A stretch of DNA of 25,058 nt from a virus, in IMG/VR virus record IMGVR_UViG_3300027770_000233, positions 1 through 25,058 of that record; one strand, written 5' to 3'. This document shows, one piece after another, positions 2-3,627 of the stretch. The position numbers and the translations under genes were made by a program. Positions within the stretch are counted from its first letter, which is position 1, and each line of letters opens with the position of its first letter. The notes under the pieces are model-generated. The model was not told the DNA's origin, did no database searches, and saw only the letters and a program-made list of their open reading frames with translations.

Positions 2-406
2 TCATCGTGCTGGGTTCCTTTCGCTACGCATTACGAGTGGATATACAAGGTGATGCGAGAGCTAACAGACAGCATCAATGCCGATGTATGGCGATTCGAC
101 ATCCAAGGCATCCAGCAGTTGCAGATCCTAAAGTACAATCCCTTGCAACAGTTTTGGTGGCACTACGATACCTTCACCTCCGAGGCTCCAGTGCGGAAGC
201 TGACCGCTGTAGTCAACTTATCCGATCCTAGCGAGTACCTGGGCGGTGGATTGCAAGTTAAGGCTGACTTGGATAATGCTCGGTTTATACGAGCGCAGGG
301 GGCTGGCTGCTGGTTCCCATCCTACATCGAGCATCGCGCTCGCGCTCCTATCTGGGGTACACGCTGGGTATTGGTAGCGTGGTTTACAGGACCAGCGTGG
401 AAGTAG
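2..406 (+). CDS. 2OG-Fe(II) oxygenase, prolyl-4-hydroxylase-like (5' partial)
   Basis: The frame is open to the left edge, so the N-terminus lies outside the window; a GTG at 50 is the first in-window start codon but is probably internal. Counting from that GTG, the protein shows an iron-binding HxD (H38-Y-D40), the strand RKLTAVVNLSDPSEYLGGG (49-67), a distal metal-binding His in SYIEHRA (H95) and the 2-oxoglutarate-binding Arg in GTRWVLVAW (R105). This HxD...H...R layout is typical of P4H/PKHD oxygenases, which hydroxylate protein or small-molecule substrates using 2OG and O2 and are common in aquatic phages. The substrate is unknown. The GGEL-type strand argues against a TET/JBP base oxidase. 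It overlaps the next frame by 28 bases. Confidence 0.85.
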   Translation, partial: SSCWVPFATHYEWIYKVMRELTDSINADVWRFDIQGIQQLQILKYNPLQQFWWHYDTFTSEAPVRKLTAVVNLSDPSEYLGGGLQVKADLDNARFIRAQGAGCWFPSYIEHRARAPIWGTRWVLVAWFTGPAWK

Positions 407-618
407 TCCAACTCAATCCCGAACTATGGATGATGACTCCCAAGGGAGAGGGGCTTGCATTCCTGGTGACAGACTACGGATTAGATCATAACAAAATATT
501 TACGATCATGCTTAATCACGGCGAGATTCTTGACTTTGATCTTCGCGATTGTCGCAGATGTGAGAACCCAAGTTTCGGGGTGCAAGCACCAGAAGTTCCG
601 AAGCCATATTACAAATGA
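379..618 (+). CDS. small conserved phage-type protein, unknown function
   Basis: A 79-residue protein with a compact C-terminal region (MTPKGEGLAFLVTDYGLDH, then NHGEILDFDLRDCRRCEN) that looks like small 'GEI' proteins found beside phage metabolic genes; no function is known to me. The start is uncertain: GTG 379 overlaps the oxygenase, GTG 397 has AGGA a few bases upstream, and ATG 430 would give 62 residues. It ends in ATGA overlapping the Mom-like gene, which supports it being a real, translated frame in the same operon. The CRRC pair could bind metal, but nothing more supports that. Confidence 0.6.
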   Translation: MVYRTSVEVVQLNPELWMMTPKGEGLAFLVTDYGLDHNKIFTIMLNHGEILDFDLRDCRRCENPSFGVQAPEVPKPYYK

Positions 619-1283
619 CAAATTTACGCGCAGATAGTTCAGTAGTAGAACTTCCCCTATTCCAAGGGGAGGACGGCGGTGCAATTCCGACCTCTGCGCT
701 CCAACTTAAATTCAGAACTATAAAATCGCAGACGCTTAATGATATGGTTGTTGAGAACCATTATGCTCATAGGGCAGTACCCTGTAGTTGGTCTTTTGGA
801 TGTTTTAATTCAAGCGAATTGCTTGGGGTAATATCTTTTGGTAAGCCAGCATCTCCACACCTTTGTCGTGGTATTTGCGGGGAAGATAATTCAAGCAGGG
901 TGTATGAGCTAAACAGATTGTGGCTTGATGACCGATGCCCAAAGAACTCTGAAAGTAGGTTTATTGCCTGGAGCATAAGAGAGCTTTCTAGGCTACGCCC
1001 ATACTTAATTCTTGTAAGCTATGCCGATACTGGTGCTGGTCACAATGGGGCAATCTATGCGGCCACAAACTGGACTTATACTGGACTATCAGATAAAAGA
1101 TCATCTGGTGACAAGGTGGTTGGCAACAAGCACAGCAGGCATTCTAGGACAATGGAGGATGCTGTCATGGTTCCAAGGACAAGGAAACATAGGTTTGTAT
1201 ATTTTTGCGACCCAGCAGATAAGTGTCTGCTCAAATGGGATATAGCAAATTGGAAAGAGTGGAAAGAATACAAAGGAGAATAG
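615..1283 (+). CDS. mom-like: Mom-family DNA modification protein (GNAT-like fold)
   Basis: A 222-residue protein with the pattern I associate with phage Mu Mom and its many phage relatives: ENHYAHR (47-53), GVISFG (71-76), YELNRLWLDD (97-106), NSESRFIAWSIREL (111-124), then VSYADTGAGHNGAIY (134-148) followed by ATNWTYTG, and a basic aromatic C-terminus RKHRFVYF (190-197). Mu Mom converts adenine in DNA to a carbamoylmethyl (acetamido) derivative and so shields phage DNA from restriction; it has an acetyltransferase-like fold. Here the start ATG overlaps the upstream TGA (ATGA), so expression is coupled. No com-like zinc-finger translational activator is visible. Whether this homologue modifies adenine is an inference. 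Confidence 0.8.
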   Translation: MTNLRADSSVVELPLFQGEDGGAIPTSALQLKFRTIKSQTLNDMVVENHYAHRAVPCSWSFGCFNSSELLGVISFGKPASPHLCRGICGEDNSSRVYELNRLWLDDRCPKNSESRFIAWSIRELSRLRPYLILVSYADTGAGHNGAIYAATNWTYTGLSDKRSSGDKVVGNKHSRHSRTMEDAVMVPRTRKHRFVYFCDPADKCLLKWDIANWKEWKEYKGE

Positions 1284-1454: not shown

Positions 1455-1633
1455 TGCTTGTAGAGACAAAGGCTCGACTCAAATGGTCACGCGATATACT
1501 TCTCACTGCCAGGGAGAAACTAGTAGTAGAGAAGAATCGCGCGGATCGTGGAAGATCGGTTGACATTATTCAGATTATCACGATGGTGGATGCAGCGGCG
1601 TTAATCGCAAAGGAAATACTTGAAAGTGAATGA
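1454..1633 (+). CDS. small helical protein (59 aa), unknown
   Basis: ATG 1454 overlaps the TAA of the previous gene, and the frame reads 59 codons to TGA 1631-1633. The sequence is mostly helical, with a charged N-terminal half (KARLKWSRDILLTAREKL) and a hydrophobic C-terminal half (DIIQIITMVDAAALIAKEI). Its end overlaps the TTG/GTG start of the C5-methyltransferase and the ATG at 1630 of the second frame, so it may set translation of either. No domain is recognised. Confidence 0.65.
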   Translation: MLVETKARLKWSRDILLTAREKLVVEKNRADRGRSVDIIQIITMVDAAALIAKEILESE

Positions 1634-2384
1634 AAAGACACACCTCGACTTATTCAGTGGGATCGGTGGATTTGCCTTGGCAGCAGGGTGGAATGGATAT
1701 AGAACCCTTGGCTTCTGTGACAACGAACCCTACGCCCAAGCAGTCCTTAAAAAACACTGGCCAGATGTGCCGTGCCACAAAGACATCCGCGAAGTACGAG
1801 GCGAGCTATACGCAGGAGTCACTCTTCTCACAGGGGGATTTCCATGTCAACCATTCTCAGTCGCAATGCAATCCCAAAGAAAGGGAAAAGAAGATGTCCG
1901 TTATCTCTGGCCAGAAATGTTGCGTGTTATACAAGAAGCAAGGCCCACTTGGATCATTGGTGAGAATGTTGTTGGGATTGTCAACATGGCACTCGACCAA
2001 GTATGCACTGACCTGGAAGGTGAAGGTTACGAAGTCGAACCGATCATTATTCCAGCTTGCAGCGTTGGAGCCAATCATAAGAGGGATAGGGTCTGGATTG
2101 TGGCCAACAGTGGCGGCATCAAGATGGAAGAATGTAAATTGGAAACGAGTGGAAACAGGACACAGAGCTTGGGACACGATAGAGAACGCGGTTGCGAGGA
2201 CGGAGTATCTTGGGGGGGGGGCAAAGAGAGGGATGCGTTTAGAGATGACCCCAGAGTTTTGCGAATGGCTAATGGGATACCCCATAGGGTGGACAGAATT
2301 AAAGGAGTCGGAAATTCCATCGTCCCGCAAGTCGCGGCAGAAATCATCAGATGCATCAACCAAGTAATGGAGGATAACAAATGA
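1620..2384 (+). CDS. dcm-like: DNA (cytosine-5) methyltransferase
   Basis: A 254-residue C5-MTase, short for the family. Motif I DLFSGIGGF (10-18) binds SAM; motif IV GGFPCQPFS holds the catalytic Cys76; motif VI is ENV (115-117); motif VIII is KRDRVW (154-159); motif X is GVGNSIVPQVA (229-239). The variable region between VIII and X, where target recognition sits, is only about 60 residues. The start is TTG 1620, with GTG 1626 as an alternative; AGGA at 1611-1614 fits either. It methylates cytosine at C5, presumably in phage DNA to evade restriction, and no partner endonuclease is seen. A 10-G tract (2212-2221) lies inside the gene. The whole length is overlapped by a second open frame. Confidence 0.92.
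   Translation: MKVNEKTHLDLFSGIGGFALAAGWNGYRTLGFCDNEPYAQAVLKKHWPDVPCHKDIREVRGELYAGVTLLTGGFPCQPFSVAMQSQRKGKEDVRYLWPEMLRVIQEARPTWIIGENVVGIVNMALDQVCTDLEGEGYEVEPIIIPACSVGANHKRDRVWIVANSGGIKMEECKLETSGNRTQSLGHDRERGCEDGVSWGGGKERDAFRDDPRVLRMANGIPHRVDRIKGVGNSIVPQVAAEIIRCINQVMEDNK
1630..2367 (+). CDS. overlapping +1-frame protein inside the methyltransferase gene
   Basis: A 245-codon frame lies wholly within the C5-MTase gene, shifted +1. It begins with ATG 1630, which shares bases with the TGA of the upstream 59-aa gene (ATGA); ATG 1894 is an internal alternative. Three stretches look like conserved protein, not random translation: WHSTKYALTWKVKVTKSNR with SLFQLA (120-144), GSGLWPTVAAS (154-164) and TPEFCEWLMGYPIGWTELK (207-225). 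I recognise this pattern (x-LTWK-x-K-x-T...LFQLAP, GLxPT, LNPxFxEWLMGYPxGWT) from phage and prophage proteins found with or beside Dcm-type genes. Its function is not known to me. Absence of any stop over 738 bases, including across the G10 run, also supports it. Expression remains unproven. Confidence 0.55.
   Translation: MKRHTSTYSVGSVDLPWQQGGMDIEPLASVTTNPTPKQSLKNTGQMCRATKTSAKYEASYTQESLFSQGDFHVNHSQSQCNPKEREKKMSVISGQKCCVLYKKQGPLGSLVRMLLGLSTWHSTKYALTWKVKVTKSNRSLFQLAALEPIIRGIGSGLWPTVAASRWKNVNWKRVETGHRAWDTIENAVARTEYLGGGAKRGMRLEMTPEFCEWLMGYPIGWTELKESEIPSSRKSRQKSSDASTK
2212..2221. repeat. G10 homopolymer in dual-coding region
   Basis: Ten consecutive G residues encode Gly codons in both overlapping frames. 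A length change of one base would break or swap both downstream frames, removing motif X of the methyltransferase. Such tracts are classic sites for replication slippage (phase variation) or polymerase slippage, though they are also prone to sequencing and assembly error. Confidence 0.9.
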
Positions 2385-2524
2385 ATGTTAGACAAGAAAT
2401 GATAAAAGAAATAATGACAACCATTCCAGAAAGCGAGCTTCATAATCTTTGCAAGCTTGATCTTGATGACTTGGCTAAGTGCTATGTTGCGGTTGTTTCG
2501 GCAAAAATGGAGAACTCTAAATGA
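2381..2524 (+). CDS. small protein (47 aa), unknown
   Basis: ATG 2381 follows GGAGG (2369-2373) at 7 nt spacing and overlaps the methyltransferase TGA; the frame ends at TGA 2522-2524, which overlaps the next ATG (ATGA). The protein is acidic and helical (IKEIMTTIPESELHNLCKLD, then LDDLAKCYVAVVSAK). The excellent ribosome site and double overlap make it convincing, but no family is recognised. Confidence 0.7.
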   Translation: MNVRQEMIKEIMTTIPESELHNLCKLDLDDLAKCYVAVVSAKMENSK

Positions 2525-3627
2525 AACTCTGGATCAATAACACCAACTCAATCCACAAGGTAGATGACAATCTACTTCACACTCGCAACACCTACGTCAT
2601 TCCAGACGAGCTAACTGGTGCGCTTTGGGATGATGCTGTTCCTTGTCCTCACAAGATTAAGCCATACGCCAAGGGTAGGGCAGCAGGAGGAGCAACCGCA
2701 GTGTACCGCGCTGGTGCTATCGGGGATGCTGTCATCGCTACTGCATTCGTTAATTACCTGGTGCAGGAGTCGGGTGGAGTGGTAGATGTTTACGCCCCTG
2801 CTCGCAACTTACCGCTGTACGCTGGCATAGGCGCGAAGCTATTCCCCCTACCTTGCACGCTGGAGGCGTGGGATAGTTATGATGCACACTTGCCCACGGA
2901 CGATCTCTTCAGTGGTCAGGTTGGTAACACCAAGCTAGGCACTGGCCCAGGCAACTGCTACCAGCGGGTGTACGAGTGGATGGGAGTATGGGATGAGAAG
3001 ACGATGGCGAAGTACTGTAGGCCATCTCTATATCTAATCGAGCCAGATCACGAAGAGTTAAAGGCGATGGGTAAGTGGCCACTGCCAGATCCCTACTTTG
3101 CCTACCACGTTTCATCGAGTGGACCTACCCGCACCTACCCGCCAGCTATGGGGCAACAGGCGGTGCTGGCGTTGCTAGAAGCTTACCCCAAGCATCACGC
3201 TGTTATTATCGGCCTAGATAACTCAAACAACTTCAAGGTGGATCATCCCAGGGTGATTGACTTGTTCAATACGACCAAGGCGATTCGCTCCTTGTTCCCT
3301 GTGGTTGCCAACGCTGACTTCGTAGTGGCTCCAGATAGTTCAGTCAACCATATCGCTGCGGGGTTAGATGTGCCGTGTGTGTCGCTGTGGGGAAGTTACG
3401 ATCCCGCTGACCGCATGACTTACTACCCTAAGAACGTATCGGTGTTCAAACCCGATACTTGTCCTCACGCACCTTGCCGTCCTCATGGTGGGTTGCCACA
3501 AGCGAAGTGTAAGGATGCGAGCAACAAGACTCCTAAGACGCAGTACTGGTGCAATGCTCTGCGAAACATTACGGCAGAAGATATTGTTGTTGCATCGCAC
3601 AAAGCGATGGAGCTAGAAGAGAAGTAA
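2521..3627 (+). CDS. glycosyltransferase family 9 (heptosyltransferase-like)
   Basis: A 368-residue GT-B enzyme resembling ADP-heptose:LPS heptosyltransferases. The N-terminal Rossmann domain begins near residue 60 with VYRAGAIGDAVIATAFVNYL, where GAIGD replaces the family's GxLGD. The C-terminal nucleotide-sugar domain has HVSSSGPTRTYP (196-207), AVIIGLDNS (227-235) and the family hallmark VVAPDSSVNHIAAGLD (268-283) followed by PCVSLWG. A Cys-rich segment follows (CPHAPCRPHGG ... KC ... WC), possibly a metal site. The likely role is transfer of a sugar to a lipid, protein or, less likely, modified DNA. The first 55 residues are an extra N-terminal segment. The gene is coupled upstream by ATGA. 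In a phage it could alter the host surface or glycosylate a phage product. Confidence 0.85.
   Translation: MKLWINNTNSIHKVDDNLLHTRNTYVIPDELTGALWDDAVPCPHKIKPYAKGRAAGGATAVYRAGAIGDAVIATAFVNYLVQESGGVVDVYAPARNLPLYAGIGAKLFPLPCTLEAWDSYDAHLPTDDLFSGQVGNTKLGTGPGNCYQRVYEWMGVWDEKTMAKYCRPSLYLIEPDHEELKAMGKWPLPDPYFAYHVSSSGPTRTYPPAMGQQAVLALLEAYPKHHAVIIGLDNSNNFKVDHPRVIDLFNTTKAIRSLFPVVANADFVVAPDSSVNHIAAGLDVPCVSLWGSYDPADRMTYYPKNVSVFKPDTCPHAPCRPHGGLPQAKCKDASNKTPKTQYWCNALRNITAEDIVVASHKAMELEEK

Follow-up and report, generated by a model that had tools for sequence, protein, structure and literature searches.

A second protein nested within a phage C5-methyltransferase gene is a probable specificity subunit of a two-polypeptide enzyme

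A C5-cytosine DNA methyltransferase (C5-MTase) gene of a virus contains a second, conserved reading frame, and the two products probably form a two-polypeptide C5-MTase of the M.EcoHK31I kind, in which the smaller product, hereafter beta, is the specificity (small-domain) subunit that accompanies the larger catalytic product, alpha. The gene is located on a virus fragment from IMG/VR, whose 25,058 bases are referred to here as the window (Table 1). Long same-strand overlaps that encode two conserved proteins are rare and usually disputed, whereas the present overlap is accompanied by hundreds of homologues and by sharp edges of selection.

Two overlapping frames in the window

The original prediction stated that two frames are open at once over positions 1630-2367, and both open reading frames (ORFs) are present as described, beta being wholly nested within alpha in the +1 frame. 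The conserved blocks quoted for the +1 frame are found in its translation, and the bases of GLWPTVA (+1) are, as claimed, those of VWIVANS (frame 0). The sharing of bases near motif X also holds, since the +1 block LMGYPIGWTELK (2269-2304) overlaps NGIPHRVDRIK and reaches the first base of GVGNS. The +1 open stretch comprises 245 codons, compared with a mean of 79 in 500 shuffles in which the protein and codon usage of frame 0 were preserved (p=0.002, which is the floor of this test). Judged from the sequence, the overlap is genuine and not a product of chance. With regard to the starts, GTG 1626 is a possible alternative for alpha, whose TTG at 1620 has AAGGA upstream of it (1610-1614) in a check for Shine-Dalgarno matches, and ATG 1693 is a possible later start for beta.

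The surroundings constitute a DNA-modification neighbourhood, in which genes for an oxygenase, a Mom-family protein, the MTase pair, and a glycosyltransferase-9-like protein lie side by side. Located beside a C5-MTase, the oxygenase could act on 5mC.

Table 1 Features of the window discussed in the text, with positions numbered from its first base.
Feature	Position	Strand	Basis
Truncated 2OG-Fe(II) oxygenase	2-406		
Mom-family protein	615-1283		PF25680, 2.8e-39
Frame 0 (alpha), C5-cytosine DNA methyltransferase, 254 aa, TTG start	1620-2384	+	ORF list, PF00145, phrog_363, AF2
Second, nested protein in the +1 frame (beta), 245 aa from ATG 1630	1630-2367	+	ORF list, phrog_1008, homologues, stop avoidance
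Catalytic large domain of alpha, comprising motifs I-VIII with PCQ at residues 75-77	1641-2111	+	Pfam and TIGR00675 alignments, AF2
Beta stretch clearly selected in +1 (frame-0 codons 61-228)	1800-2303	+	Synonymous identity, third-position rates
Beta core sheet, +1 residues 116-146, inside LSTWHSTKYALTWKVKVTKSNRSLFQLAA	1975-2067	+	AF2 strands, conservation
Beta GLWPTVA, single WPTP-type module, bases common to alpha motif VIII	2098-2118	+	Module consensus
Alpha linker, motif VIII to X, predicted disordered	2112-2303	+	pLDDT <50, residues 167-232
G10 tract in linker, possible slippage site	2212-2221	+	Sequence
Beta motif IX-like block MTPEFCEWLMGYPIGWTEL	2245-2301	+	Conservation, AF2 helix, in-frame class A equivalents
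Alpha motif X GVGNSIVPQVAAEI	2304-2345	+	Sequence, conservation, AF2 helix
Glycosyltransferase-9-like protein	2521-3627		

Frame 0 encodes the catalytic half

Alpha matches PF00145 (DNA_methylase) at 2.7e-37, but the match joins residues 9-170 to positions 4-168 of a profile of 324. TIGR00675 is matched with 102.5 bits, above its cut-off of 100.65, and phrog_363 at 2.3e-69 over residues 5-252. Frame 0 had been predicted to contain all C5-MTase motifs; motifs I-VIII, including PCQ and ENV, and motif X are indeed present, but there is no recognisable motif IX. Neither this motif nor a target-recognition domain was found in the alpha chain in the Pfam alignment or the AF2 model. In that model, the blocks of motifs I-VIII mostly exhibit pLDDT values of 82-97, with two blocks at 67-76, and the motif X helix (residues 236-252) forms a block with a pLDDT of 95, G231 and P236 of this motif being invariant in alignment A3. 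The model superposes on M.HhaI with a Z of 23.8 and an rmsd of 2.2 over 192 of 327 residues, and the structural alignment runs as far as residue 326. The half-profile Pfam match, the AF2 confidence pattern, and this superposition identify frame 0 as the large domain. The small domain missing from frame 0 would most simply be the +1 product.

Anatomy of the +1 product

Beta matches phrog_1008 at 2.3e-25, a PHROG labelled 'DNA methyltransferase', and showed no match to any Pfam or NCBIfam family in the profile searches. Its core follows the pattern S.W.ST.Y.LTWK.K.TK..RLLFQL, for which three strands are predicted (residues 116-120, 123-133, and 139-146, block pLDDT up to 92), and W120, S122, W129, T134, and L143 are at least 90% conserved. 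The AF2 model of the whole of beta is weak (mean pLDDT 57.5, pTM 0.26). The confidence of the two models is complementary, alpha being disordered over residues 167-232 and beta being confident at the sheet and at the motif IX helix.

The beta module listed in Table 1 belongs to a type that exhibits the consensus [ML][WL]PTPTA.D.K.G in the +1 linkers of the homologues. These linkers contain 317 PTP modules in the +1 frame, 1 in frame 0, and 6 in the +2 frame, and the number of WPTP modules, which lie between motifs VIII and IX, rises with linker length (Spearman 0.57). The modules would provide target specificity, although they may serve a purpose other than target recognition, since they are kept in the +1 frame of some class A MTases, whose motif IX is in frame. 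In this class, +1 stops occur at about half of their expectation. The actinophage-type class A loci L158, L178, L179, L180, and L192 exhibit long +1 ORFs with several LPTP modules and motif IX in frame; in L178, the +1 ORF ends where frame 0 picks up an LPTP module.

The C-terminal part of beta comprises a motif IX look-alike, TPEFCEWLMGYPIGW, which is conserved across the family as LNPxWVEWLMGYPxGWTDL. Within it, P208, M215, G216, and P218 are nearly invariant, and residues 208-215 are modelled as a helix (block pLDDT 86). In class A MTases, a motif IX-like sequence is found in frame and aligns without gaps with residues 282-307 of M.HhaI (motifs IX-X), an alignment that is short and exact in its positions, with a score that is not significant on its own.

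Both frames are under selection

The homologues comprise 80 viral loci collected by the frame-0 protein alone, a set that is unbiased for motif IX. Each of the 80 has a +1 homologue, always in the same relative frame and even where frame-0 identity drops to about 40%. Among distinct homologous genes, 314 stops are observed in the +1 frame, compared with 647 expected from synonymous shuffles, whereas the +2 frame shows 1288 observed and 1297 expected. The overlap was originally predicted to be old, to give perhaps an accessory or specificity factor, and to reduce synonymous variation. This prediction is supported: the +1 homologue is present at every locus, +1 stops are strongly avoided, and the reduction in synonymous variation is very strong, with abrupt limits where the +1 ORF starts and stops. 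The phage proteins named in that prediction as associated with Dcm-type genes are this same +1 product, PHROG 1008.

Excess synonymous identity was calculated as codon identity at conserved amino acids relative to the gene's own codon usage, in genes less than 85% identical. In a distant clade (31 genes), the +1 ORF opens with an ATG close to frame-0 codon 58 and closes just past GWT(D/E)L. The excess in this clade is 0.02-0.07 over codons 1-60, 0.17-0.27 over codons 61-164, 0.49 over codons 206-229, and 0.06 and -0.01 past the +1 stop, so the edges of the constraint coincide with the +1 start and stop. Several codons are frozen: G219 is GGG in 47/47, P211 is CCC in 40/40, V224 is GTG in 32/32, and D225 is GAC in 29/29. 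The ratio of third- to first-position changes falls from 2.38 to 1.37 and then to 0.70, before returning to 1.73 beyond the +1 stop. The most variable position of the last block is the first of frame 0, which is the third of the +1 frame. An independent set of 52 bacterial genes replicates the viral pattern (0.057, 0.212, 0.398, and 0.042), whereas class A MTases, which have an in-frame motif IX, exhibit a value of 0.053 at this motif, which represents no excess. Taken as patterns of substitution, these results indicate that both frames are under coding selection.

Beta is presumably translated as a separate protein. A Shine-Dalgarno match of at least 5 bases is present at the first +1 start in 93 of 237 loci, compared with 8.2% of deeper in-frame starts; for ATG 1630 of the window, no good match was found. 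As only the core from about position 1800 is clearly selected, and as the clade of the window is too closely related to reveal selection on the +1 extension upstream of it (1630 to about 1800), ATG 1630 is a candidate rather than a proven start of beta. The +1 start of the window is uncertain, and it may be coupled to the start of frame 0.

Distribution and annotation of the family

Viral contigs were scanned with a DNA pattern for FVEWMMG[LF]P, and both the +1 and the in-frame forms were recovered. Among the fetched loci whose motif X lies in frame 0, motif IX is in the +1 frame in 283 and in frame in 32, figures to be read with the genome-contig and class A loci having been chosen by motif IX, which biases their motif IX frequencies. 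Only 1 of 354 motif IX matches has no MTase nearby, and that one lies at a contig end; no standalone beta gene clearly free of an MTase was found among the 354. This near-constant association with an MTase gene is expected of a subunit. On a plasmid of Paenibacillus bovis, a second beta-like ORF, which comprises WPTP and motif IX (L360:2052-2453), is located directly downstream of a nested alpha/beta pair, without an overlapping MTase of its own, and is possibly a spare specificity subunit.

The nested layout, in which core and motif IX are in +1 relative to the frame of the MTase and motif X, is found in named phages of Paenibacillus, Lactobacillus, Mycobacterium, Escherichia (Kagunavirus), Klebsiella, Pseudomonas (PMG1), Vibrio, and Porphyromonas, in marine and enrichment-culture phages, and in plasmids of Enterobacter and Paenibacillus; it is absent in Streptococcus phage Javan6. 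Bacterial matches belong to Bacillota, Bacteroidota, Pseudomonadota, Calditrichota, and others, and, within the phylum of Shouchella (L291), an even sample of 299 genomes contained 4 with a match.

Databases usually annotate such a gene as a single protein, and they carry frame 0, the +1 frame, or both, depending on the gene caller and the choice of the annotator. The records of Lily and Diva list an 'internal gene', and those of PMG1 and Rctr197k contain the +1 frame only. At L358:1406-2167, L153:2495-3175, and L362:1546-2133, only the +1 product or split pieces are annotated, as methyltransferase or hypothetical protein. No description of the +1 protein of phage MTases was found in the literature searched, nor of its breadth, of the selection on both frames, or of the modular +1 linker.

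Linker tracts and frame swapping

The close relatives L003-L006 lack the G10 tract that the window has in its linker. Across the homologues, linkers contain 25 mono- and dinucleotide tracts in 75.5 kb, compared with 8 in 119.5 kb for motifs I-VIII. Such tracts are present in 8 of 10 loci with a frame swap between motifs VIII and IX, compared with 11 of 221 intact loci. Frame-swapped relatives exhibit AG tracts (L094, L096, L293, and L319) or G8-G9 tracts (L100, L304, and L348), and frame states differ between closely similar tract-bearing relatives. L094 and L096 have most of the linker in common and differ in (AG)n length and in the frames that are joined. The tract pattern fits either phase variation or, in the G runs, sequencing error.

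Probable function and alternatives

In the two-polypeptide reading, frame 0 would provide alpha, which contributes motifs I-VIII and X as the large catalytic domain and has a short disordered linker in place of the target-recognition domain of one-chain enzymes. Internal initiation in the +1 frame would provide beta, whose small sheet core, WPTP modules, and motif IX helix would make up the missing small domain. We infer that the two assemble, with beta positioning the DNA target for methylation by alpha, and that their biological role could be the protection of phage DNA, the locus adjoining a Mom-type modification gene.

The +1 protein might instead be real but not an MTase subunit, acting as a regulator, a nuclease partner, or an inhibitor of host restriction. 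That beta belongs to no Pfam or NCBIfam family agrees with such a role, which we nevertheless consider improbable: the motif IX look-alike at the end of beta falls precisely at the place where this motif is missing from frame 0, class A enzymes have the in-frame counterpart, and beta practically always accompanies a C5-MTase. It is more improbable still that slippage of ribosomes or polymerase in the linker joins frame-0 motifs I-VIII to the +1 C-terminus, with no separate beta. The G or AG tracts of some linkers would allow such a fusion, and L094, L100, L304, L345, L348, and L049 have the frame-0 N-terminus and motif IX in one ORF. However, a slippage tract is present in only 11 of 221 intact linkers, the fusion would be without motif X, and the Shine-Dalgarno enrichment at the first +1 starts is at odds with it. 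As a main product, the fusion is disfavoured because selection on the +1 frame begins early, at codon 61, far ahead of the linker. The least probable of the alternatives, by a small step, is that there is no second protein but a nucleic-acid signal (an RNA structure or DNA element) or a shadow of the highly conserved frame-0 protein, which can mimic a protein: synonymous constraint is by definition unexplained by frame 0, stops are avoided in +1 and not in +2, substitutions follow +1 codon positions, the linkers keep PTP modules in +1 and not in frame 0, and class A lacks constraint at motif IX, the first and last of these ruling out the shadow.

A wider version of the two-polypeptide reading is possible, though we regard it as tentative. 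The family may represent a large unrecognised class of phage and prophage C5-MTases, spread over many phyla, whose entire specificity domain is overprinted on the catalytic gene, whose +1 WPTP modules set the target, and whose G and AG tracts swap frames to give phase-variable alpha/beta chimeras. If the two-polypeptide reading is true, the annotation of many phage methyltransferases would change, the 'DNA methyltransferase' of PHROG 1008 being beta. It would also explain the many phage C5-MTases that seemingly have no recognition domain, and codon-optimised cloning of the annotated frame alone would destroy half the enzyme.

Comparison with known systems

The closest known systems include M.EcoHK31I and M.EaeI; in M.EcoHK31I, beta is read from within the alpha gene in a different frame. 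The window resembles M.EcoHK31I in its motif layout, on which the likeness is drawn: motif IX belongs to the smaller polypeptide, and motifs I-VIII and X belong to the larger one. The window is assigned to the same kind because it fits every defining feature tested. M.EcoHK31I is a bacterial restriction-modification enzyme, whereas the MTase of the window is that of a phage, and no restriction gene was seen beside it. Moreover, the target-recognition domain of M.EcoHK31I is predicted in alpha, whereas the alpha linker of the window is disordered and the modules are in the +1 product. M.EcoHK31I recognises YGGCCR and carries motif IX on a different polypeptide from motifs I-VIII and X, and the title of Lee, Kam and Shaw (1995) states that two proteins are required in vitro (PMC3404938).

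M.AquI (CYCGRG) is naturally split, with specificity elements in its smaller subunit (PMC3404938). As in the window, the catalytic motifs and motif IX are on separate chains; however, the small subunit of M.AquI comprises part of the variable region with motifs IX and X, whereas in the window X remains in alpha, within whose gene the small protein is nested in another frame. M.HhaI and M.HaeIII are single chains, in contrast to the large and small domains spread over two frames in the window. The likeness to M.HhaI consists in the superposition of the alpha model and in the +1 motif IX, which resembles M.HhaI 282-307 via the in-frame relatives.

Mycobacteriophage methylases of the ShiLan type contain an out-of-frame HNH element (PMC11855218), and thus also hide a second protein in another frame of a phage methylase gene. 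The HNH element is a mobile insertion of patchy occurrence, whereas the +1 product is conserved, tied to the MTase gene, and encoded over the catalytic motifs themselves. PHROG 1008 and the 'internal gene' entries of the Paenibacillus larvae phages Lily, Diva, and Tadhana correspond to the +1 family, which is labelled 'DNA methyltransferase' or 'hypothetical'. For the Paenibacillus phages, the accessible part of the published account lists both genes without comment on their frame relation (PMC6070908). An arrangement known biochemically from one enzyme appears to be present in hundreds of phage and prophage genes.
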